This document shows positions 3,693-62,139 of a stretch of DNA of 64,000 nucleotides, piece by piece (position 1 is the first letter of the stretch; each line of letters begins with the position of its first letter). Origin of the DNA: a virus; IMG/VR virus record IMGVR_UViG_3300034407_001956, positions 1 to 64,000 of that record; one strand, given 5' to 3'. Below the pieces are notes generated by a model. The model was not told where the DNA came from and ran no database searches. It saw only the letters and a list, made by a program, of their open reading frames with translations. The position numbers and the translations under genes were made by a program.

Positions 3693-5702
3693 ATGGAAAA
3701 ATTTACATTATCAGAAAATTTTATAAATAAGTTTAAAAGAAAAAAACCACCATTCGGTTTCAACGGATTAGGTGAGTTGGTTTATATGAGAACCTACTCA
3801 AGAATTAAAGAAGATGGAAAGAATGAAAGATGGTGGGAAACAGTTAGAAGAGTCGTAGAGGGAACATACTCTATGCAAAAAAATCACATTGATGGACATC
3901 AATTAGGGTGGAATCCGTGGCAAGCTCAAAAGTCAGCGCAAGATATGTATGAGCGCATTTTCAGTATGAAGTTTTTGCCACCTGGCCGTGGACTTTGGGC
4001 TATGGGAACAGCCATAACCGAAGAAAAGGGTTTATACGCCGCCCTCAACAATTGTGCATTTGTATCAACATCAACAATAAAAGATGACTATGCTAAACCA
4101 TTCTGTTTCCTTATGGATGCAAGTATGTTAGGAGTAGGAGTTGGATTTGATACTAAGGGTGCTGGTGAGATTATCGTAAAGGGTATAGACGAAAGTCGTG
4201 ATGAATCCCTATTTGAAATACCAGATACTCGTGAGGGTTGGGTTGAGTCTCTTAAAGTTCTTTTAGAAAGTTACTTTCACGGAACTGCTCCTATCAAATT
4301 TGATTACTCAAAGATAAGAGCGGCTGGAGAACCAATCGCAGGATTTGGTGGAGTATCAAGTGGTCACGAACCTTTGCTTGAAGTACACAAAGATATAATA
4401 AAGGTTTTAGAAAAAAATGAAGGTGAACCAATAACAATAACAACAATTGTAGACATAATGAATCTGATTGGCAAATGTGTTGTAGCAGGTAATGTAAGAA
4501 GAACTGCTGAGATTGTATTTGGTGATCCGCACGATGAAGAGTATTTAGATTTAAAAAATTACAAAGTAAATCCGGATAGGGAGACATATGGTTGGACTTC
4601 TAATAATAGTATATATGCAGAACTCGGTATGGATTATACTGATGTATGTCGAAGAATAGTAGATAATGGAGAACCAGGCTTTGCTTGGTTAGATAATATG
4701 AGACATTACTCTCGTATGAAGAATGGTGGGGATGATAAAGACCATAGGGTAATGGGCGGTAATCCTTGTTTAGAACAATCACTAGAATCATACGAGTTAT
4801 GTTGTTTAGTAGAAACATTTCCACACAATCACGATTCATTAGAAGATTATCAAAGAACTTTAAAATATGCATATTTGTATGCTAAAACAGTTACATTAGG
4901 AAGAACTCATTGGGCTGAAACCAATAGGGTTATGTTAAGAAATAGAAGAATAGGATGTTCTGTAAGTGGAGTAGCTCAGTTTATTACAAAGAATGGAATG
5001 GGTGAACTACAGAATTGGTTGGAGACAGGATATGATACAATACAAGAATGGGATAAACAATATTCTGATTGGTTTGCTGTACCGAAGTCAATTAAAACAA
5101 CATCAGTTAAACCAAGTGGCACTGTTTCCTTATTGGTTGGTGCTACTCCAGGAATGCATTACCCTGAGTCGAGGTTTTATATTAGGAGAATGAGATTATC
5201 AAAGCATTCAGAACTATTAGAACCACTAAAGAAAGCTAACTATAAATTAGAACCAGCTTTTGGTTCAGAGGACACAACAATGGTTGTTGAAGTTCCTGTA
5301 GATGTCGGTGAGGGGATAAGAACAGCAGCTGAACTTTCAATTTGGGAACAATTTAGTTTAGCTGCTTTCTTACAAAGACATTGGGCTGATAATCAGGTAA
5401 GTTGCACTGCTACTTTCGATCCAGAAACAGAAGCTAACCAACTACCACACGTTTTAAATTACTTTCAGTATAAATTAAAGGGTATATCATTACTACCACG
5501 ACACGAATTAGGTGCTTATAAACAGATGCCATATGAAGCTATCACAGAAGAAGAATATAATACTATGGTAGGTAAGTTAGGTAAATTATCTTTCGGTGTA
5601 ATCAAAAATGAAGAGGCTGATATAGATAAATTCTGTAATAACGATAGTTGTGAAGTACCACCTTTAACAGGTGATAATGACGATCAAGAATATGCAAATT
5701 AA
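3693..5702 (+). CDS. nrdJ: adenosylcobalamin-dependent ribonucleotide reductase, class II
   Basis: Reduces ribonucleotides to deoxynucleotides using coenzyme B12; the single-chain form fits the monomeric Lactobacillus-type triphosphate reductase. Visible catalytic elements are 'NNCAF' (Cys ~119), 'GGNPCLEQ' (radical Cys ~359 with its Glu), 'CCLVETFP' (second redox Cys ~370), 'KPSGTVSLL' (phosphate loop) and a C-terminal shuttle pair CNNDSC near 648-653, spaced C-x4-C as in the Lactobacillus enzyme. The ATG at 3693 follows TTAGGAG; an upstream TTG in frame lacks such a site. The length of 669 is a little short of the ~739 of the type enzyme. No NrdA/NrdB is present here. Confidence 0.94.
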   Translation: MEKFTLSENFINKFKRKKPPFGFNGLGELVYMRTYSRIKEDGKNERWWETVRRVVEGTYSMQKNHIDGHQLGWNPWQAQKSAQDMYERIFSMKFLPPGRGLWAMGTAITEEKGLYAALNNCAFVSTSTIKDDYAKPFCFLMDASMLGVGVGFDTKGAGEIIVKGIDESRDESLFEIPDTREGWVESLKVLLESYFHGTAPIKFDYSKIRAAGEPIAGFGGVSSGHEPLLEVHKDIIKVLEKNEGEPITITTIVDIMNLIGKCVVAGNVRRTAEIVFGDPHDEEYLDLKNYKVNPDRETYGWTSNNSIYAELGMDYTDVCRRIVDNGEPGFAWLDNMRHYSRMKNGGDDKDHRVMGGNPCLEQSLESYELCCLVETFPHNHDSLEDYQRTLKYAYLYAKTVTLGRTHWAETNRVMLRNRRIGCSVSGVAQFITKNGMGELQNWLETGYDTIQEWDKQYSDWFAVPKSIKTTSVKPSGTVSLLVGATPGMHYPESRFYIRRMRLSKHSELLEPLKKANYKLEPAFGSEDTTMVVEVPVDVGEGIRTAAELSIWEQFSLAAFLQRHWADNQVSCTATFDPETEANQLPHVLNYFQYKLKGISLLPRHELGAYKQMPYEAITEEEYNTMVGKLGKLSFGVIKNEEADIDKFCNNDSCEVPPLTGDNDDQEYAN

Positions 5703-5768
5703 ACGCGGACAGGCAGCTGACACACCTGTGAAAAAATGTGTCTTAACTAAGAAAAGAGGAGAACGTTA
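5703..5768 (+). promoter_or_regulatory. leader with two mutually exclusive hairpins before the receptor gene
   Basis: Between nrdJ and the receptor gene, 5709-5713 can pair with 5725-5729 (ACAGG/CCTGT), or 5719-5724 with 5737-5742 (GACACA/TGTGTC). The two stems overlap, so only one can form. A good ribosome site (AGAGGAG) follows at about 5755. No clear -35/-10 pair is visible. It might be an attenuator or a processing site; the function is a guess. Confidence 0.35.
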
Positions 5769-8498
5769 ATGAAGAAACGTAATCTAATAATAACATTACT
5801 AATGACAACAGGATTGTTCGCACAATCTATCGTTGGAGTTGTTGGTAATGGTAAAGAACCATTGGCAGGAGCTAATGTGATTGTTGTCGGAACTGATAAA
5901 GGTGGTGTAACAGATGAGTCTGGTAAATATACTATCGATGTTGGAGCTGAAGGCACATACACATTAACTGCTTCTTTCATTGGGTACTCATCTTTAACAC
6001 TTGATGTTAAGGTGGGTGATATAGTTGGAACAGCAAACTTCGATTTAGAAGCAGATGTTTTAGCTATGTCAGCGCTTGAGGTTTTAGCATCAAGAGCTGA
6101 TGAAACAACGCCTGTTGCTTACACTAATGTTAGTAAAGAGGATTTGGAATTTCGTCTTGGTTCACAAGATATTCCAATGGCTCTAAATACTACACCGAGT
6201 GTATACGCTACTGGCCAAGGTGGTGGAGCTGGAGATGCTCGTATCAATGTACGTGGTTTCAACCAAAGAAACGTTGCTGTTATGATTAACGGTGTTCCCC
6301 AAAATGATATGGAGAACGGATGGGTTTATTGGTCTAACTGGGATGGTGTTGCAGACGCAGCCCAATCAGTTCAGATGCAAAGAGGACTATCTGCTGTTAA
6401 TTTAGCTACACCGTCTATTGGTGGAACTATGAACATAATCACAGATCCTGCTGCTCAAGAAAAGGGTGGTAAAGTAAAGCAAGAAGTAGGTGAGGGTGGA
6501 TTCCTCAAATCTACTTTGAATTATAACTCAGGTCTTATCAATGATAAACTAGCACTTAGTGGAACTATTGTTCGTAAAACTGGTGATGGTTTCATCGATG
6601 GAACTTGGACAGATGCATGGGCTTACTATTTCGGAAGTTCTTATCAGCTGAATGATGAACATCGATTTGAGTTATATGGAATAGGCGCCCCACAAAGACA
6701 CGGTCAAAACCTATATAAACAGAACATAGCGACTTACTCACAAGATTTAGCAGGAGACATTAGTGGTTATAATGATTCTGCTTATGTAGCTGGTGAGAAG
6801 TTTGAAACTGAAGCTGGTAGGTTCTACAATCAGAATTGGGCTCCTGTCGATCCTTCTTATAAAGGTAAACAATACTTTTATATGTATGGTGATAAAACAC
6901 AGGATAGATTCAGTTCTGATTTTCTAAATGAAAGAGAAAACTTCTTTCATAAACCACTTGTAAACCTAAATCACTTTTATGATATAAATGATGATATGAG
7001 GTTAAGTTCAGTACTTTACTGGAGTGGTGGTTCAGGTGGTGGAACTGGTACTTACGGAAGTGTCAGTAGAAAACCTGCAGTTGAAGGAGAACCTTGGTAC
7101 GCAAGTTCACCTTGGATGTGGGATTGGAATGCCGAGATAGCTCAGAACTCTGCTAATGTAGATTCTGCTTTCTCTGATGTTGAAAATCGTTCAACAGGTA
7201 TTCTTAGGAACTCAATCAATAGACAAAATACTTATGGTTTGATTTCAAAATTAAACTATGATGTATCAGATGCTCTTGAAATTCAAGTCGGTATTGATTG
7301 GAGAACTGCTGGAATAGAACATGCTAGAGAAGTTCGTGACTTACTTGGTGGAGACTACTATGTAGATTACGCTGATGACAATGCTCCTGATGGTAAGAAA
7401 GTTGGGTTAGGTGATATTATCGCTTACCACAACGAAACCACAGTTGATTGGTTTGGTGCTTTCTTACAAGGTAAGTATGACATCGCTAAGTTCAACTTAT
7501 ATGGTATGGGTGGAATATCCACTATTGGATATACATATCAAGACCATTTCTCAGTTGATAAAGAAGTTGTTAAGGCTGATGCTATTACTACTTTCCAAGT
7601 GAAAGGTGGTGGTAGATATAATCTTGATGACAGACTTTCAGCATTTGCTAACATTGGGTATGTTGAGAAACCACCAATCTTAGACAATGTGATTGATTAT
7701 GATGGTAATGTTTCACAGAATCCAGATAATGAAAAGTTCATTTCTAACGAAATCGGTGGAGAATACAGAAGCGATTTAGTTGCTATCAAAGGTAGTTTTT
7801 ATAATACCCAATGGAAAGATAGAAACCTTACCAAATCTGTAACTACTGGACAAGGTGATTCAGGCGACTCAGACATCATTTATCTTACTGGCGTAAATCA
7901 AACTCATAGTGGTTTTGAGATAGAGTCTAAAGTTGCTCTTCACAAAATGGTTGAGTTAGATGTAGCGATAAGTATTGGTTCTTGGAAGTTCGATGGAGAT
8001 GCTAAAGGTGACTACACAGAGATGGAATACAATGATGATAATCAAATTATTGGACAAACATCTACTGAGTACCAATATGCTCTTAATGGTCTAATGGTTG
8101 GTGATATGCCACAAACTGCTTATGTTGGTGGCCTTACACTTAAACCAATTGATGGACTTAGCTTACAAGGTCTCTATAGAATATACGACAATCACTATGC
8201 TGATTGGAGTCCTGATTCTCGTGAGGTTGATGGTGATGCTGATAGGGCGCAAGTTTGGAAATCTCCTGGATATTCTAAGCTTGATTTACATATTGCATAT
8301 AAACTACCAGAAATTGCAGGTTTAGATATGACTATAACAGGTCATCTATTCAATGCACTTGACAATGTTTATGTTCAAGACGCTGTTGATAATAGTCAAT
8401 ATAATGGGTATGGTGACAAAGTTCACGCTGCTCATAATGCTGAAGTATTTCTTGGAACACCAAGACACTTCAACTTAGGACTTGCTGTCAATTTCTAA
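5769..8498 (+). CDS. TonB-dependent outer-membrane receptor
   Basis: Outer-membrane, TonB-energised transporter or receptor. A Sec signal peptide covers residues 1-19 ('LMTTGLFAQS' cleavage region), a carboxypeptidase-regulatory-like beta domain ~20-100 ('EPLAGANVIV', 'TDESGKYTI'), a plug domain ~105-225 ('RINVRGFNQRNVAVMINGVP', 'PSIGGTMNIITD'), and a long barrel ending in a terminal aromatic, 'LGLAVNF', as outer-membrane proteins do. The 909 residues exceed BtuB (~600) and resemble the larger receptors of Bacteroidota and Marinimicrobia-type bacteria. It lies between a B12-dependent reductase and the polymerase and is closed by its own terminator, like a horizontally acquired moron. Substrate is unknown; cobalamin is suggested only by context. 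Alternatives are a decoy or superinfection-exclusion protein. Confidence 0.93.
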   Translation: MKKRNLIITLLMTTGLFAQSIVGVVGNGKEPLAGANVIVVGTDKGGVTDESGKYTIDVGAEGTYTLTASFIGYSSLTLDVKVGDIVGTANFDLEADVLAMSALEVLASRADETTPVAYTNVSKEDLEFRLGSQDIPMALNTTPSVYATGQGGGAGDARINVRGFNQRNVAVMINGVPQNDMENGWVYWSNWDGVADAAQSVQMQRGLSAVNLATPSIGGTMNIITDPAAQEKGGKVKQEVGEGGFLKSTLNYNSGLINDKLALSGTIVRKTGDGFIDGTWTDAWAYYFGSSYQLNDEHRFELYGIGAPQRHGQNLYKQNIATYSQDLAGDISGYNDSAYVAGEKFETEAGRFYNQNWAPVDPSYKGKQYFYMYGDKTQDRFSSDFLNERENFFHKPLVNLNHFYDINDDMRLSSVLYWSGGSGGGTGTYGSVSRKPAVEGEPWYASSPWMWDWNAEIAQNSANVDSAFSDVENRSTGILRNSINRQNTYGLISKLNYDVSDALEIQVGIDWRTAGIEHAREVRDLLGGDYYVDYADDNAPDGKKVGLGDIIAYHNETTVDWFGAFLQGKYDIAKFNLYGMGGISTIGYTYQDHFSVDKEVVKADAITTFQVKGGGRYNLDDRLSAFANIGYVEKPPILDNVIDYDGNVSQNPDNEKFISNEIGGEYRSDLVAIKGSFYNTQWKDRNLTKSVTTGQGDSGDSDIIYLTGVNQTHSGFEIESKVALHKMVELDVAISIGSWKFDGDAKGDYTEMEYNDDNQIIGQTSTEYQYALNGLMVGDMPQTAYVGGLTLKPIDGLSLQGLYRIYDNHYADWSPDSREVDGDADRAQVWKSPGYSKLDLHIAYKLPEIAGLDMTITGHLFNALDNVYVQDAVDNSQYNGYGDKVHAAHNAEVFLGTPRHFNLGLAVNF

Positions 8499-8510: not shown

Positions 8511-8536
8511 GGGGGGAATTTATTTCCCCCCTTTTA
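8511..8536 (+). terminator. rho-independent terminator after the receptor gene
   Basis: A perfect 8-bp stem (GGGGGGAA 8511-8518 with TTCCCCCC 8524-8531), a 5-base loop and a TTTT tract directly after it. It ends the transcript 13 bases past the receptor stop and separates it from the polymerase promoter downstream. Confidence 0.9.
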
Positions 8537-11163: not shown

Positions 11164-11880
11164 ATGAACAAACATTCACTAAGCCGCTTTATTGATAAGT
11201 ACTATCTTGGCGGAAATTGTTCATCGGTTGTAATTAATAGTAAAGGGGATAATCTCTCTACTCGGTTTATTACTGGTGATAAGAATCTACTTGGAGAACT
11301 AACAATGACTGGTTGGAAGTTCGATGATGCTGATTTAGGTGTATATAACACAGAGCAGCTTGTTAAGTTACTATCGGTTCTATCAGAAAACATAACAATG
11401 AATCTTACAAAAGCTGGAGATAAAGCAGTATCTCTTAAAATATCAGATAGTAATTCCGATGTTAATTATATGCTTTCAGATTTATCTGTTATTAGTTCAC
11501 CACCTAATCTAAAGTCTATACCTGATTTTGAGGTAAAGATAAAAGTTGATAAGTCTTTTATGCAGAAGTTTATTGCTGGTAAAGGTGCTTTGGCTGATAC
11601 TGATAATTTTACAGTATTGACAAATGACGATGGCGTAAAGATTGTAATTGGTTATGCTGAGATTAGTACAAATCGTGTTACGCTTCCTGTAGAAACAGAA
11701 TCTTTTGATAAGATAGACAATGTTTCTTTTAACGCTAATCTATTCAGAGATGTGTTGGTAGCTAATAAAGAATGTGAAGGTGCGACATTGGAAGTAAGTT
11801 CAGGCGGTTTGGCTAGAATTAATTTCAAAGTTGATGAGTATGATGCCACATATTATTTAGTTGCTGAACAAGATGTGTAA
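11164..11880 (+). CDS. 45: sliding clamp (T4 gp45-like)
   Basis: Trimeric processivity clamp that tethers the polymerase and, in T4, also activates late transcription. The 238 residues match gp45 (228) in size, position between gp43 and gp44, and overall character: acidic, with a repeated beta-alpha-beta layout and a C-terminal half 'FNANLFRDVLVANKE...' typical of the gp45 C domain. Sequence conservation in this family is low, so context carries much of the call. A strong site (TAAGGAG) precedes the ATG. An AT-rich element (ATATATTTATATAT) around 11120 could hold a promoter. Confidence 0.88.
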   Translation: MNKHSLSRFIDKYYLGGNCSSVVINSKGDNLSTRFITGDKNLLGELTMTGWKFDDADLGVYNTEQLVKLLSVLSENITMNLTKAGDKAVSLKISDSNSDVNYMLSDLSVISSPPNLKSIPDFEVKIKVDKSFMQKFIAGKGALADTDNFTVLTNDDGVKIVIGYAEISTNRVTLPVETESFDKIDNVSFNANLFRDVLVANKECEGATLEVSSGGLARINFKVDEYDATYYLVAEQDV

Positions 11881-12647
11881 TGGAAGAAAAGTATGTAGAT
11901 AAGTCTAGAGTTTCTGTCAGGCCAATCTATAAACCATTGGCTAAGGATATGATAGAAAAAAACCACTATAGTGGTAGGTTGTCATCTTGTCGCTATCCGC
12001 TTGGAATCTTTTATCAAACTGATAATGAACATAAATTCTTTGCGGAACCTGAAGAGAAACTCATAGGAGTTGCTTGTTATGGTTTTCCTGTTGGAAGAAG
12101 GGTCTTAGGTTCTATCTTCTCTGAAGAGATATTAGAGAATAGAAACATATTAGAACTTACGAGACTCTTCATCCACGATGGTTATGGTAAGAATATTGAG
12201 TCTTTGGCATTAGGTCTTACATTCAAATGGATGAAAGATAATGCCAAAGATATAAAGGTTCTAATATCATATGCTGATCCCGAACAATCTCATGATGGTG
12301 CTATTTATCAAGCTACTAATTGGATTTATCAAGGTTGTGGTGCTTTTCAAATGGCACCAACCTTTTCTCTTAGACTTGAAGAAGATGGTGAATGGATGCA
12401 CAGTAGAAGTGTGTATTCAAAATTCGGTTCTTCTGCACCTGAAAAGATGAAGAAGTCAATAGGTCATGATTTTTGGTTAAAGAAGGAAGCCAGCAAACAT
12501 AGATACATTTACTTTTTAGGCAACAAAAAAGAGAATAGGAAATTTCATAGTGTGATGAAACACCCACAAATGAAGTATCCTAAGAACTACAAACACGATA
12601 TTGAAATAACAAAAATAGAGGTTAATAACGAAAAATGGAAAGATTAG
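11880..12647 (+). CDS. mom: Mom-like DNA modification protein, copy 1
   Basis: Resembles the Mom family (GNAT-like fold) that in phage Mu converts adenine to a carbamoylmethyl form and so blocks restriction. Seen here: an N-terminal 'IEKNHYSGR', 'ELTRLFIHDGYGKN' (~94-107), then 'ISYADPEQSHDGAIYQATNW' (~129-148), the last matching the Mom 'SYAD...H.G.IY.A' signature. It shares this frame with the proteins at 15030 and 49642. The start overlaps the clamp stop (TAATG) and the end overlaps the clamp loader by 13 bases, so it is made with the replisome. The exact chemistry and sequence specificity are unknown. Confidence 0.8.
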   Translation: MEEKYVDKSRVSVRPIYKPLAKDMIEKNHYSGRLSSCRYPLGIFYQTDNEHKFFAEPEEKLIGVACYGFPVGRRVLGSIFSEEILENRNILELTRLFIHDGYGKNIESLALGLTFKWMKDNAKDIKVLISYADPEQSHDGAIYQATNWIYQGCGAFQMAPTFSLRLEEDGEWMHSRSVYSKFGSSAPEKMKKSIGHDFWLKKEASKHRYIYFLGNKKENRKFHSVMKHPQMKYPKNYKHDIEITKIEVNNEKWKD

Positions 12648-15029: not shown

Positions 15030-15671
15030 ATGAGCGTAAAGAACTTCACAGTCGAAGAAGTAACTAGAAAATCAATTGTCAGTTTTATAGAGAAACACCA
15101 CTATTCACATAACGTAAATGGTGTTCAATCATTGTATCACTATGGATTATATACTGAAGGAAACTTTGGTATTCCAAAGATGATTGGGGCTATGATGTAT
15201 GCTCACCCATCAATGCCAGCTACAGCAGCTAAGTACAATCCTATCAATCCTAATAAGTGTTTAGAACTTAGGAGATTGGTTTGTATTGATGATACGCCAA
15301 AGAATACAGAAAGTTATTTTATAGGACAAACATTTAAGTTACTCAAAAGAGATACAGATATGGAAGTCATAGTCTCATTTGCTGACCAACACCACGGACA
15401 CACAGGTGTAATCTACAAAGCTAGTAACTTTGATTATTTAGGAGAGACTAAGCCTGGTAGAATACTAATGGTGGATGGTAAAGAAATGCACAGTAGGTCT
15501 TTGAATCAGTTAGACAGACCTTATGGAAGAGAATTGAATCGTAGATACAAAGCTGGTGATAAAAATATATTTTGGAAGAACACAAAACCAAAGCATATTT
15601 ATACTTACTATCTAAATAAAAAAATCAAAAGACAAATAAAAAAGCTTGACTTATACACCAAAAATGTGTAA
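15030..15671 (+). CDS. Mom-like DNA modification protein, copy 2
   Basis: A 213-residue second member of the Mom/GNAT-like group, shorter and diverged from copy 1. Shared elements: 'IEKHHYSHNVNG' near the start, 'LELRRLVCIDD' (~81-91), 'VSFADQHHGHTGVIYKASNF' (~115-134) and a late 'MHSRSLNQ' also found in copy 1 ('MHSRSVYS'). It starts 3 bases after gp62. It could modify a different base context from copy 1, or have a different role; no methyltransferase or restriction gene is next to it. Confidence 0.75.
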   Translation: MSVKNFTVEEVTRKSIVSFIEKHHYSHNVNGVQSLYHYGLYTEGNFGIPKMIGAMMYAHPSMPATAAKYNPINPNKCLELRRLVCIDDTPKNTESYFIGQTFKLLKRDTDMEVIVSFADQHHGHTGVIYKASNFDYLGETKPGRILMVDGKEMHSRSLNQLDRPYGRELNRRYKAGDKNIFWKNTKPKHIYTYYLNKKIKRQIKKLDLYTKNV

Positions 15672-15697: not shown

Positions 15698-16099
15698 ATG
15701 AAAAATATAAAAGAATCAAATACAAAAAAAGAAGTAAATTCTTACCTAACAGGTGATGGTGCCGATATAGTGGCATTGATGGAGAAAGAATGGCCGGAAA
15801 TGACTAAGGAGTTTCGTAGGTTACAAAAAGAACAATACGAATTATTTCTTAAAAAACAACACGACTATGGTCCTGGTAATATTTCCGTAGGAACACAATT
15901 ACAGACAGAAGAAGAAGTACATCTAGCACTTACTGGTTTATGGTTCAGAATGAACGATAAGATACAGAGGTTAAAAACTTTATTGATGGGTAAGAGAGGT
16001 AATGCGGTAGAAGGAGAACCAATGGAAGATGCTTATTTAGATGTGAGTAACTATGGTATTATGGCTACTATCGTAAAGAATGGTAAGTGGGGTAAATGA
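15698..16099 (+). CDS. DUF1599 / nucleotide-modification-associated domain protein
   Basis: A 133-residue protein with 'LFLKKQHDYGPGNIS' (~48-62) and 'GLWFRMNDKIQRLKTLL' (~81-97), the hallmarks of DUF1599 (called nucleotide modification associated domain 1), common in phages. Its biochemical role is not settled. 'DAYLDVSNYGIMA' near the end completes the family pattern. It heads a new transcription unit after a promoter and ends in ATGA overlap with a small gene. It may link to base modification with the Mom-like proteins nearby. Confidence 0.75.
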   Translation: MKNIKESNTKKEVNSYLTGDGADIVALMEKEWPEMTKEFRRLQKEQYELFLKKQHDYGPGNISVGTQLQTEEEVHLALTGLWFRMNDKIQRLKTLLMGKRGNAVEGEPMEDAYLDVSNYGIMATIVKNGKWGK

Positions 16100-49481: not shown

Positions 49482-49645
49482 AAGAATTAACTAAAGAACA
49501 ACAAAAAGAATTGGAAATGCTGGCTACTGAAATAGAAGCAGAAGCTATCCAAATGAAAATAGACTATGAGAACAATCCATCAGAAATGAGCGGAAGTATT
49601 GTAGTTGTACACGAAGAATCAGAATACTTAGATGAGGAAGAGTGA
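49478..49645 (+). CDS. 55-residue acidic protein
   Basis: Glu-rich helix (MKELTKEQQKELEML...) then 'GSIVVVHEESEYLDEEE'. Begins in ATGA overlap with the membrane peptide and ends in GTGA overlap with the third Mom-like gene. Unknown function. Confidence 0.5.
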   Translation: MKELTKEQQKELEMLATEIEAEAIQMKIDYENNPSEMSGSIVVVHEESEYLDEEE

Positions 49646-50406
49646 CTAAAAAATATGTAGATACATCTAAACTATCTGTTAGAGAAATAGATAGAAAGAT
49701 TGCTAAGAAATTAATAGTTGAGAATCATTATTCACATCAATGGACAAAATGTACTCACGCATTGGGTTTGTTTACCACAACGGGTAGAGAACACTCATTT
49801 TTTGATGAACCTGAAGAGAAGTTAATTGGTGCTATATGTTATGGAGATCCAATAGGTAGAAACTCTGGCGCTTCAATATCATTAGCAGTACCGAGAACAG
49901 CAGTATTTGAGTTGGTAAGATTATTTGTATTTGATGGTTATGGTGGCAATATAGAATCATATCTAATAGGTGAGAGTTTTAGGTGGTTGAAGAAGAATAG
50001 GCCGGATATAAAAGCTCTCATATCATATTCAGACCCAATGCAAGGTCATGTTGGAACTGTGTATCAGGCAACCAATTGGATATACCAAGGTAATAATATA
50101 AGGTGGTCTGATAGTTGGTTGTTTAGATTTGAAGAGGATGGTAAGTGGCAACACGGAAGAACTATATTTCCTTATTATGGCACAAATGATATAAAGAAGA
50201 TGAAAGGCTTAGTTAAGAATGACTTTTGGGTAAAGAAAGAGGTGAAGAAACATAGATATGTTTATCTATTAGGAACTAAGGGAGACAGAAAGAAAGCTTT
50301 AAGAAAAATAAAACATCCGATTCTACCATATCCGAAAACAGGTGATATAATGGAATCAGAAATAGTAAAAATAAAAGTACACAAATTTGGGAGGATTGAT
50401 GGCTAA
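49642..50406 (+). CDS. mom: Mom-like DNA modification protein, copy 3
   Basis: 254 residues, closely patterned on copy 1: 'YVDTSKLSVREIDRK' against 'YVDKSRVSVRPIYKP', 'VENHYSHQW', 'ELVRLFVFDGYGGNIES' (~93-109), 'ISYSDPMQGHVGTVYQATNW' (~129-148), 'FWVKKEVKKHRYVYLLG'. GTG start. Far from the other copies (35 kb), with a different set of neighbours, so probably an independent duplicate rather than a tandem one. Confidence 0.78.
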   Translation: MTKKYVDTSKLSVREIDRKIAKKLIVENHYSHQWTKCTHALGLFTTTGREHSFFDEPEEKLIGAICYGDPIGRNSGASISLAVPRTAVFELVRLFVFDGYGGNIESYLIGESFRWLKKNRPDIKALISYSDPMQGHVGTVYQATNWIYQGNNIRWSDSWLFRFEEDGKWQHGRTIFPYYGTNDIKKMKGLVKNDFWVKKEVKKHRYVYLLGTKGDRKKALRKIKHPILPYPKTGDIMESEIVKIKVHKFGRIDG

Positions 50407-53921: not shown

Positions 53922-54338
53922 ATGGTAAATAAAAATGATATGAGATGGCCTAAGGTTTGTGAGGGTGAATGTGTACCGAAGGGATGGGGAGAAGAAATAA
54001 TAATAGCTAATAACAAAGACTATTGTGGTAAGGTATTGGTATTCAAAGAAAGCGGTAAGTTCTCAATGCACTTCCATATGATAAAGGACGAGACGTGGTA
54101 TGTAGAGAAGGGAAGGTTTGTGTATAGGTGGATAGATATATTAACAGCGGAGATAAAAGAAAACCTATTAAAGCCAGGCGACGTGGTAAGACAAAGGCCA
54201 GGCCAACCTCACCAATTGGAGTGTCTAAACGGTGGCGGTAGGATATTTGAGGTGAGTACAGAACATAAGGATTCAGACTCATATAGGGTAATGCCAGGTG
54301 ACTCTCAATCTAAGAAGGACATCAACCCATTTAAGTAA
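53922..54338 (+). CDS. cupin protein, mannose-6-phosphate isomerase type
   Basis: 138 residues, single cupin barrel: 'PKGWGEEIIIANN' (~20-32), 'GKFSMHFHMIKDETWYVEKGRF' (~46-67, metal His, His, Glu) and 'PGDVVRQRPGQPHQLECL' (~87-104, final His). Similar to cupins of sugar-phosphate isomerases that sit beside glycan genes. Full metal site present. It lies 5.7 kb from the island but could serve it. Confidence 0.8.
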   Translation: MVNKNDMRWPKVCEGECVPKGWGEEIIIANNKDYCGKVLVFKESGKFSMHFHMIKDETWYVEKGRFVYRWIDILTAEIKENLLKPGDVVRQRPGQPHQLECLNGGGRIFEVSTEHKDSDSYRVMPGDSQSKKDINPFK

Positions 54339-59056: not shown

Positions 59057-59172
59057 TGAGGGCAAAAATGTTAGATGAGGTAATGAAGAGTAGGAGTAAC
59101 ATACCAATGTTACTATTCGTTGCGGTAGTTTGTTTTTTAATAGGATTAACAATAGGAGTTATGTCAGTATGA
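59056..59172 (+). CDS. 38-residue single-span membrane peptide
   Basis: Short hydrophilic N-terminus (MRAKMLDEVMKSR...), then a hydrophobic span of about 20 residues ('MLLFVAVVCFLIGLTIGVM'). Linked by TAATG and ATGA overlaps to the genes on each side. Confidence 0.5.
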   Translation: MRAKMLDEVMKSRSNIPMLLFVAVVCFLIGLTIGVMSV

Positions 59173-60080
59173 ACATAGGTTACGCTTGTATCAATATGCA
59201 ATTATCATCACAGAAACCAAAGGTGTATACCGGCAGAAGTATGATTAAACGAACCTTTAAAGCTAGGGGCATTGAGTATGCATCTGAGCTAGGTTTACAG
59301 AATTGTAAAGACTTATTTGAAATAGTTAAATGGAATAATGAGAATGGGTTTCCTTTCTTTCGTATTACATCTAATTTATTTCCTTGGTCATCTGAATACA
59401 AACTTGAGGATATGCCAGACTATTTTGAGATAGGTAGTACACTAGCAAATGTGGGTAAGTATGTAGCTGACAATAATATGAGGATTACTTCTCATCCTGG
59501 TCCATTCAATGTTCTTACTTCACCACACCCACACGTTGTAGATAATTGTATCAATGACTTATCCACACACGGAGAAGTATTTGATATGATGGGATTGAGT
59601 AGAACACCTTACAACAAAATCAATATTCATATTGGTGGTGCTTATGGAGATAAGGAATCAGCTATGGCTAGATTCTGTACCAACTTTGTTAGATTGCCAG
59701 ATTCGGTTAAGAGTAGACTCACTGTTGAGAATGATGATAAGGCTACTATGTATTCTGTTAGAGATTTATATGATGGAGTTTACAAAGTAATTGGTATTCC
59801 TATTGTATTTGATTACCACCACCATCAGTTCTGTACAGGTGATTTGACAGAACAAAAAGCATTGGAGTTGGCTATTAAAACGTGGGGTGATATTAAACCT
59901 GTTGTTCATTATTCAGAGAGCAGACGTGACGAAAAGAAAGATGATACTATCAGAGTACAGGCTCATTCAGATTATGTTTATGAGAAGATTGAGACATATG
60001 GTCACGACATTGATATTATGATTGAGGCTAAACATAAAGAGCTAGCAGTTCAGAGATATAGGGAACTACATATTGACTAA
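59169..60080 (+). CDS. uvsE: UV damage endonuclease UvsE/UVDE
   Basis: TIM-barrel endonuclease that nicks 5' of UV photoproducts and some other lesions. 'MNIGYACINMQLSS' is the typical N-terminus; 'RITSHPGPFNVL' (~100-111), 'INIHIGGAYGDKESAMARF' (~148-166), 'TVENDDKATMY' (metal Glu, ~182-192) and 'FDYHHHQFC' (metal His/Asp, ~211-219) are conserved. The start is the ATGA overlap; a further-upstream start inside the membrane peptide gene is rejected. Repair would help a phage exposed to sunlight. Confidence 0.93.
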   Translation: MNIGYACINMQLSSQKPKVYTGRSMIKRTFKARGIEYASELGLQNCKDLFEIVKWNNENGFPFFRITSNLFPWSSEYKLEDMPDYFEIGSTLANVGKYVADNNMRITSHPGPFNVLTSPHPHVVDNCINDLSTHGEVFDMMGLSRTPYNKINIHIGGAYGDKESAMARFCTNFVRLPDSVKSRLTVENDDKATMYSVRDLYDGVYKVIGIPIVFDYHHHQFCTGDLTEQKALELAIKTWGDIKPVVHYSESRRDEKKDDTIRVQAHSDYVYEKIETYGHDIDIMIEAKHKELAVQRYRELHID

Positions 60081-60846
60081 TCTAAATATGACAGTATACC
60101 ACATACCGAGATGTGCTGGTACAACCTTTCAATACTATCTATTAAGTCTGTATGGTGTAGGAGTAGAAGTAGAAAAATATGATACTTCAGATAGTAATCC
60201 ACACCTACAGATAAACGAATTGGAATTTACAGGTGATTTGGTTAGAGACTACTCATCTATAAATTGGGATTCTAAAACATTTGGCTATAAGATATTATTG
60301 GATAATGAAAGCACTGTAAATGAAGATGTTGGAGAAAACATATACAGATACGGAGATGTAGACTTTGATTTGATGTATGGACATTTTGGTATAGATAAGT
60401 ATCCATCAGAAAATCGTAATAAAGTAGTTTGGTTAAGAGAACCATTAGAAAGAGCATTATCACAAGCTAAGTATCTGGCATACGCTCAAAGATACTACGC
60501 TTCAGATTTAGATTGGCCGTTTGAGAATATGGATATAAATGATTACATAAACTCTGATGATGTTGTGAATACTATGACAAAATATGTTGGTAAAGATTTA
60601 TCTGATTTTAAGTTTGTTGGTATAGTTGAACATATGGATAGAGATATTGCAAGGTTTCAAGATATGTTTGGATTAGAAAAAACTAAGCTACCTAAAACAA
60701 ATCAGTATGATTCTATGGTTAGAGTAGCTCCAATACATTGTGATGAGTGCTCCAAAAGATTTGATTTCATATCAGCTGATATAGATAGACAAAGATTTTT
60801 TGAAAATAATAAAGAGGACTATGAACTATACAATACTTATATATAA
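60073..60846 (+). CDS. sulfotransferase-like protein
   Basis: PAPS-dependent carbohydrate sulfotransferase pattern: 'YHIPRCAGTTFQYYL' (~9-23) is the 5' phosphosulfate loop and 'VVWLREPLERALSQAKYLAY' (~122-141) the 3' phosphate site. 257 residues if TTG 60073 (AGGGA 9 bases upstream, overlapping the UvsE stop) is used; 252 if the ATG at 60088 is. Likely sulfates a glycan, so it may work with the island 12 kb away. Confidence 0.8.
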   Translation: MTNLNMTVYHIPRCAGTTFQYYLLSLYGVGVEVEKYDTSDSNPHLQINELEFTGDLVRDYSSINWDSKTFGYKILLDNESTVNEDVGENIYRYGDVDFDLMYGHFGIDKYPSENRNKVVWLREPLERALSQAKYLAYAQRYYASDLDWPFENMDINDYINSDDVVNTMTKYVGKDLSDFKFVGIVEHMDRDIARFQDMFGLEKTKLPKTNQYDSMVRVAPIHCDECSKRFDFISADIDRQRFFENNKEDYELYNTYI

Positions 60847-61582: not shown

Positions 61583-61605
61583 CATATATGACAAAAGGGG
61601 TAAAA

Positions 61606-62139
61606 ATGAAAAAGACAATAATTTTTGATTTAGATGGAACACTAGCAGACATCGAAGCTAGGAGGCAGTTGGCTATGATTCCAGGTAAAAGAGTCAATGA
61701 GAATGGATTCAATGTTCCTAAATTGGATTGGGATATATTCTTTGATGCTGAAAGCATTAAGTTAGATAAACCAAATGCTCCTGTTATTAAGATGGCTCAG
61801 ATGTTTAAAGCTGATGGTTTTAAGATTGTCATCTTTAGTGGTAGGAATGATAGGTCTTTCTTTACTACTAAAAAATGGTTATTAGATAATGATGTACCAT
61901 TTGATTTATTGGTGTTAAGGCCTGATAAGTTTCAAGCTGATTCTTGGCCGATTGCTGATGGTAATCCAGCTACTAAAGAAATGAGGTTTATGCCTGATGA
62001 AATCCTAAAGAAGAAGATGTTAGATACTTTTGTAGACATTGACGATGTATTCTTAGTTGTCGATGACAGACAGAAAGTTGTGGATATGTGGAGAGCTTTA
62101 GGACTTAATACATTTCAGGTAGCACCAGGAAATTTCTAA
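61606..62139 (+). CDS. HAD phosphatase, T4 polynucleotide kinase 3'-phosphatase-like
   Basis: 177 residues. 'IIFDLDGTLADIEARR' (~4-19) is HAD motif I with the nucleophile Asp; 'IVIFSGRND' (~77-85) motif II; 'DDVFLVVDDRQKVVDMWRALG' (~145-165) motif IV, and 'FQVAPGNF' ends as in the PNK phosphatase domain. No kinase domain is attached. ATG with AAAAGGGG seven bases before. Could trim 3' phosphates in RNA or DNA repair. Confidence 0.86.
   Translation: MKKTIIFDLDGTLADIEARRQLAMIPGKRVNENGFNVPKLDWDIFFDAESIKLDKPNAPVIKMAQMFKADGFKIVIFSGRNDRSFFTTKKWLLDNDVPFDLLVLRPDKFQADSWPIADGNPATKEMRFMPDEILKKKMLDTFVDIDDVFLVVDDRQKVVDMWRALGLNTFQVAPGNF

Follow-up and report, generated by a model that had tools for sequence, protein, structure and literature searches.

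TonB-dependent outer-membrane receptors (TBDRs) mostly import scarce nutrients such as iron-siderophores, peptides and glycans, and are also common receptors for phages. To our knowledge, outer-membrane uptake receptors are seldom carried by phages themselves. In gene regulation, the PreQ1-I riboswitch and the leader of T4 gene 32 represent a small H-type pseudoknot topology with an A-rich loop before the ribosome-binding site; in the gene 32 leader the pseudoknot is followed by an A-rich, mostly unpaired stretch in front of the Shine-Dalgarno (SD) sequence. One phage-encoded TBDR, the SusC-like protein of the megaphage Mar_Mega_1, was read as a carbohydrate uptake protein, and neither an nrdJ pairing nor a leader RNA was reported for that phage (PMC9723777). 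In Riemerella, an outer-membrane barrel with an N-terminal CarboxypepD_reg domain (RA0C_RS04915), which is paired with a DUF5689 protein, is essential for natural transformation (PMC8459023), and tonB mutations were reported to lower transformation (PMC8383284).

The TBDR gene described here lies within the window, i.e., the whole analysed stretch of 64,000 nucleotides, which corresponds to positions 1-64,000 of a virus record of 94,369 bases. According to profile searches of the open reading frames, a T4-like replication block spans 1-15 kb of the window in the order UvsX/RecA, 5'-3' exonuclease, DnaB, NrdJ, receptor, family B polymerase (PolB), sliding clamp and clamp loader. nrdJ (3693-5702) and the TBDR gene (5769-8498) are two intact reading frames on the plus strand with 66 nt between them. 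On the same strand, this gap holds a pseudoknot RNA element (5709-5742; model span 5705-5746) and a Shine-Dalgarno-like AGAGGAG (5755-5761), the latter also having counterparts in relatives. The receptor gene is followed by a strong hairpin resembling an intrinsic terminator, GGGGGGAATTTATTTCCCCCC-TTTT (8511-8531, plus strand), and G/C-rich hairpins occupy the equivalent position in most relatives. The initial annotation, which placed a complete receptor with its own terminator 66 bases after nrdJ, was therefore correct, as confirmed by the reading frames, domains, terminal Phe and hairpin; it overlooked the conserved pseudoknot within the gap and the commonness of the receptor in this marine phage lineage. 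In three relatives (L067, L070 and L076) a tRNA-like sequence directly follows the TBDR gene, replacing the terminator of the other phages; it could help to name the host.

We are highly confident that this phage TBDR is widespread, host-derived and preceded by a new leader RNA. As for its role, our best explanation, to which we give a probability of about 40%, is that this host-derived, pseudoknot-led receptor would import nucleic-acid breakdown products for viral replication.

The receptor (909 aa) comprises a signal peptide (residues ~1-19), a carboxypeptidase-regulatory-like domain (~22-100), a conserved TonB-box-proximal segment LEVLASRAD (103-111), a plug (112-225) and a barrel (226-909) ending in Phe. 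CarbopepD_reg_2 and Plug Pfam models both score above their cut-offs (54.8 bits against 23.9 for the plug, PF07715); the barrel Pfam model does not match the window protein. A TBDR-type barrel is predicted by AlphaFold2 (pLDDT mostly 80-90; the plug is poorly modelled, with pLDDT below 50 for residues 131-225), and Foldseek matches it to Fiu, FhuA and FecA. All Foldseek matches were generic TBDRs at a TM-score of ~0.5 and the plug was mis-modelled, so this approach was dropped as a guide to the substrate. Assignment to the SusC/RagA family was rejected as well, since TIGR04056 scored 46.7 bits against a cut-off of 368 and the phage neighbours are nrdJ and PolB, not a SusD partner.

Uptake of another scarce nutrient (iron-siderophore, peptide or glycan) as a general auxiliary metabolic function is possible, though we would not call it probable. 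It would agree with the usual role of TBDRs, with the 8-30 TBDRs carried by the hosts, with siderophore receptors being the top Foldseek matches, albeit at a low TM-score, and with the interpretation of the megaphage protein (PMC9723777). However, no siderophore or SusD-type neighbours were recognised at the orthologs inspected, and NCBIfam matches were confined to the plug and N-terminus, far below the cut-offs.

Phage-encoded TBDRs had been expected to be very unusual. This is wrong for the lineage in question: scanning IMG/VR with the window receptor gave at least 313 confirmed stretches encoding its relatives, the best 80 of which are 74-100% identical to it. Yet the receptor has no close relative among the annotated phage records of the collection searched: among 50,697 phage records, the only full-length matches were two unannotated human-faecal fragments (~31%). 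A0A8D9FQQ5, an uncultured marine phage entry of BFVD, shares only 12% identity with the window receptor.

The pairing with nrdJ recurs in other phage contigs, as the initial annotation proposed to check. nrdJ is located upstream of the receptor gene in 75 of the best 80 stretches, with a spacing of normally 70-120 nt; in four of the other five the contig stops no more than 131 nt from the receptor, and in L079 nrdJ is ~27 kb away. All eight TBDR records tested contain nrdJ somewhere. When the search was seeded with nrdJ, the receptor adjoined it in 58 of 80 loci and 11 contigs were too short to tell; in the other 11, nrdJ is followed directly by PolB (ten loci, 65-157 nt) or by a glutamine-synthetase-like ORF (L170). 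Among 102 loci having both nrdJ and PolB, 92 hold the receptor and ten do not, and one 95.9-kb nrdJ record has no receptor anywhere. The nrdJ-PolB interval can also carry glutamine synthetase, a dUTPase-like ORF and others. As nrdJ loci without the receptor and with alternative cargo exist, the nrdJ-receptor pair is real and frequent but not obligatory, and the interval is a cargo site. The idea of strict functional coupling between the receptor and nrdJ is weakened, the site being able to hold glutamine synthetase or nothing.

Glutamine synthetase as an alternative or extra cargo between nrdJ and PolB is exemplified by L198:8016-9008 (PF00120/PF03951); similar ORFs are found in this interval at L217:8008-9000 and L170:6967-7596 and in L008, L012, L043, L058, L064, L077 and L158. 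Two contigs filed under Flavobacteriales and Euryarchaeota MAGs (L082 and L128, respectively) are actually phage contigs with the phage replication genes.

The nearest cellular proteins are solitary chromosomal TBDRs of Neomarinimicrobiota (SAR406, Marinimicrobia), which are ~57-68% identical to the phage receptor end to end and have the same architecture, TonB-box-proximal motif and plug. Unlike the phage gene, they have housekeeping genes as neighbours and no pseudoknot leader in front of them. Homologs were found in 114 of 199 Neomarinimicrobiota genomes at E<=1e-60. In a tree of 86 proteins, 52 viral sequences together with L083, a 4.3-kb MAG contig, form one clade inside the SAR406 TBDRs (SH-aLRT 100). 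This single viral clade points to one acquisition of the gene from a SAR406-like host, the host assignment being based on the receptor phylogeny.

The receptor is intact and full-length in 112 viral loci, and pairwise dN/dS values of 0.03-0.18 indicate purifying selection. The LEVLASRAD segment and the plug are almost invariant in both viral and cellular receptors. The regions most variable among hosts vary less among viruses, the viral set being also shallower. These observations bear on the idea of exclusion, in which the phage copy would replace or mask the host receptor, or be shed as a decoy, and thereby block rival phages. The frequent use of TBDRs by phages for adsorption and the close, not identical, relationship of the phage copy to the host homolog would be compatible with this role. 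However, its TonB-box region and plug show the same degree of conservation as those of the hosts, the host-variable regions are not diversified among the viruses, and an extra receptor would more simply help the rivals, which makes exclusion quite improbable in our opinion. Since a decoy need not keep the TonB-box region and plug so strictly, the pattern of conservation favours the viral receptor being kept as a working transporter. If it does transport nutrients, infection gives the cell an additional uptake capacity determined by the virus.

Comparison of 48 dereplicated phages has revealed a conserved block of 34 nt in the gap between nrdJ and the TBDR gene, AYAGGCAGNNGRCRCACCTRTNNAAAAATGYGYC (5709-5742). 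It can be folded into an H-type pseudoknot of two interleaved helices, P1 (5709-5713 with 5725-5729; ACAGG/CCUGU) and P2 (5719-5724 with 5737-5742; GRCRCA/UGYGYC), with an A-rich loop at 5730-5736. Covariation is seen in both helices: in 48 distinct sequences 98.5% of cells are paired, five of the 11 pairs change on both sides, and 38 double changes are observed against 9.6 expected from shuffling, the signal collapsing when the partners are slid. The element occurs once in the window, with 0 occurrences expected by chance.

In the TBDR phage loci examined the element is conserved, being located no further than 160 nt ahead of the TBDR gene in all 134 loci that match the pattern, and a pseudoknot model finds it in variant loci missed by the pattern. 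When the whole collection of viral contigs was scanned without seeding by the receptor, all 73 newly fetched pseudoknot loci were found to precede a TBDR gene: in 68 of them it is the next gene, and in five the contig ends with the start of the receptor gene visible. The element stays by the receptor where glutamine synthetase intervenes after nrdJ (L012 and L198) and in L079, where the receptor is remote from nrdJ. It was not found in nrdJ loci without the receptor, nor upstream of cellular TBDRs in 75 host loci. With its conserved structure, compensatory changes and TBDR-only context, this element is a structured cis-regulatory RNA. Since it accompanies the TBDR gene and not nrdJ and is absent from the cellular copies, it seems to be a regulator of the receptor gene that is specific to the viruses. 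The receptor occurs in the majority of the sampled members of this large, uncultured marine phage lineage and has a dedicated RNA leader. Rfam 15 gave no match on the strand of the element at E up to 10, and the sole match, to ncS16 on the opposite strand (E 6.4), is due to chance, so the pseudoknot is new in the sense of being previously unlisted. No earlier report of the receptor-RNA pair was found in the open-licence literature.

The element resembles both the PreQ1-I riboswitch and the T4 gene 32 leader in topology, being a small pseudoknot of the H type that has an A-rich loop and precedes the ribosome-binding site; a difference is the lack of any Rfam model matching the element. The SD-like motif of the relatives is located 11-27 nt downstream of the pseudoknot, and the leader between them is A-rich and mostly unpaired. 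Among the loop positions, C10, A11 and A28-A32 do not vary. A simple switch sequestering the SD sequence is not supported: since this sequence is mostly open with the element present in the fold or taken out (0.68 vs. 0.77), plain masking is not evident.

Instead of a metabolite riboswitch, the pseudoknot could be an operator for a phage protein, similar to that of T4 gene 32, which would fit any receptor substrate. The T4-like replisome of the phage and the order of pseudoknot, unpaired A-rich leader and SD sequence are in line with this reading, but the element precedes the receptor gene and not a gene for a single-stranded DNA-binding protein (SSB), none of the ORFs scanned was recognised as an SSB gene, and the invariance of the listed loop bases is as in ligand-binding pseudoknots. 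We regard such an operator as a possibility to be taken seriously but still as rather unlikely. A small-molecule riboswitch is a further possibility; its more specific version, in which the pseudoknot, as a new class of viral riboswitch, would sense a nucleotide-type metabolite and control a receptor that draws DNA or RNA fragments from outside into the infected cell for use by NrdJ and in viral DNA synthesis, appears doubtful. As the element is short, highly conserved and not in Rfam, its ligand or binding protein can be searched for directly with the 34-nt RNA, and this partner, once identified, would also point to the purpose of the receptor.

nrdJ codes for an RTPR-type adenosylcobalamin-dependent ribonucleoside-triphosphate reductase of 669 aa. 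It belongs to class II RTPRs according to TIGR02505 (350.7 bits, cut-off 340.05), matches PF17975, PF21995 and PF02867, aligns to the solved RTPR structure (PDB 1l1l) and has the cysteine motifs NNC, NPC-E and C-terminal CNNDSC. NrdJ had no match in 16 Marinimicrobia genomes in a search that lacked a positive control.

The cofactor requirement of NrdJ had led to the proposal that the phage raises B12 uptake, with the receptor importing cobalamin for its own reductase. The location of nrdJ next to and ahead of the TBDR gene in almost every TBDR phage and its presence in all eight records tested fit this proposal, as do matches of a phage AAA ATPase and its large partner to the PHROGs "porphyrin biosynthesis" and "cobalamin biosynthesis protein". 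Family models, host riboswitch context and presence/absence data speak against it. The window receptor does not match the BtuB model TIGR01779, and just one of 49 family members matches it at all; the window receptor and BtuB share the TBDR fold. Among 16 Marinimicrobia genomes, 12 have exactly one cobalamin riboswitch each, and ten of these 12 riboswitches precede a different TBDR with a frame of ~660-730 aa; these separate host B12 receptors show only local similarity of 17-26% to the phage receptor. Neither cobalamin riboswitches nor cobalamin genes were found in the window or at the 12 cellular ortholog loci scanned, and, according to the Rfam search, the leader RNA of the phage is no cobalamin riboswitch. 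Moreover, the TBDR gene is absent from the ten nrdJ-PolB loci mentioned above, and the leader RNA moves with the TBDR gene, not with nrdJ. We therefore consider a B12 receptor unlikely and have rejected this explanation.

The single SAR406 cobalamin riboswitch, found in L225, L227, L229, L235 and others, is usually located ahead of a dedicated BtuB-like TBDR gene, whereas the gene that it precedes in L231 and L234 is a smaller one encoding a secreted protein. The phage AAA ATPase mentioned above is MoxR-like (CbbQ_C) and is found with its large partner at L447:14055-15998 and L448:332-1540; CobT is not confirmed by Pfam, and the two may be a generic AAA pair.

Nucleic-acid fragments, either DNA or oligonucleotides, are in our view a plausible, if tentative, candidate substrate. 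The argument comes mainly from the gene neighbourhoods of more distant homologs (~34-51% identity). In many Flavobacteriales and one Bacteroidales genome the gene is flanked by those for a secreted protein with a lamin-tail domain and for a secreted nuclease (Endonuclease I or PLD-type), often with DUF5689, and in one genome from Ignavibacteria a type I phosphodiesterase gene comes after it. The gene is often in an operon with these enzymes. A nuclease-type neighbour within two genes was found for 11 of 34 Flavobacteriales, Bacteroidales and Ignavibacteria homologs and for none of the 17 TBDRs that served as controls, which came from two Flavobacteriales genomes, but the Fisher p of 0.009 is only indicative because the case loci supplied the seeds and are related to each other, hence not phylogenetically independent. 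The glutamine synthetase among the co-cargo of relatives was also counted in favour of this reading.

In Marinimicrobia, a deoxynucleoside kinase gene directly follows the receptor gene in three lineages (L086, L127 and L271), a phosphodiesterase gene adjoins it in L285, and an S1/P1 nuclease is encoded close to it in L088, L089 and L115. Most copies are solitary, with a nuclease within two genes in just two of 83, and their deoxynucleoside kinase, SRAP and DnaG neighbours may merely reflect a housekeeping region. As the neighbours are mostly housekeeping genes, this chromosomal context was of little help and was set aside as direct evidence on the substrate.

As a precedent for such uptake, the Riemerella transformation barrel is similar to the phage receptor in its CarboxypepD_reg N-domain and in the DUF5689 partner seen at the nuclease-linked loci (PMC8459023). 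Look-alike loci of this type (L368-L376) form a related but separate and more distant lineage, and the phage-receptor family profile scores other TBDRs of those genomes higher. Judged by these look-alikes, RA0C_RS04915 may represent a different gene.

Import of nucleic acids would suit a phage that brings its own reductase. In this scenario, a phage lineage with a T4-like replisome would have acquired in a single event, from a Marinimicrobia (SAR406)-like host, the TBDR found across that phylum. It would have retained it as a transport-competent receptor with a separate RNA leader, the H-type pseudoknot located immediately ahead of the ribosome-binding site. During infection, the receptor would presumably be made alongside the replication genes, inserted in the outer membrane and energised by the host TonB, so that imported oligonucleotides or DNA pieces could provide NrdJ and the polymerase with nucleotides, nitrogen and phosphorus. 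The role of the pseudoknot would be to adjust translation to a metabolite or to a phage RNA-binding protein. This is also a first substrate hypothesis for a TBDR widespread in SAR406 bacteria.

Pilin- or pseudopilin-like ORFs are located at L447:10399-11535 (record 74399-75535) and, in another TBDR phage, at L079:17470-19023; one of them has the N-terminal methylation motif (PF07963). As type IV pili are involved in DNA uptake in other systems, there may be a link.

Several other genes of the phage record deserve mention. The window encodes three Mom-like DNA-modification proteins (11880-12647, 15030-15671 and 49642-50406), a DUF1599 nucleotide-modification protein (15698-16099), a cysteine-dioxygenase-like protein (53922-54338), a UvdE endonuclease (59130-60080), a sulfotransferase (60073-60846) and a polynucleotide-kinase-like protein (61588-62139). 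A DruA-like protein (PF14236, Druantia) is also phage-encoded, at L448:11621-12814 (record 91621-92814).
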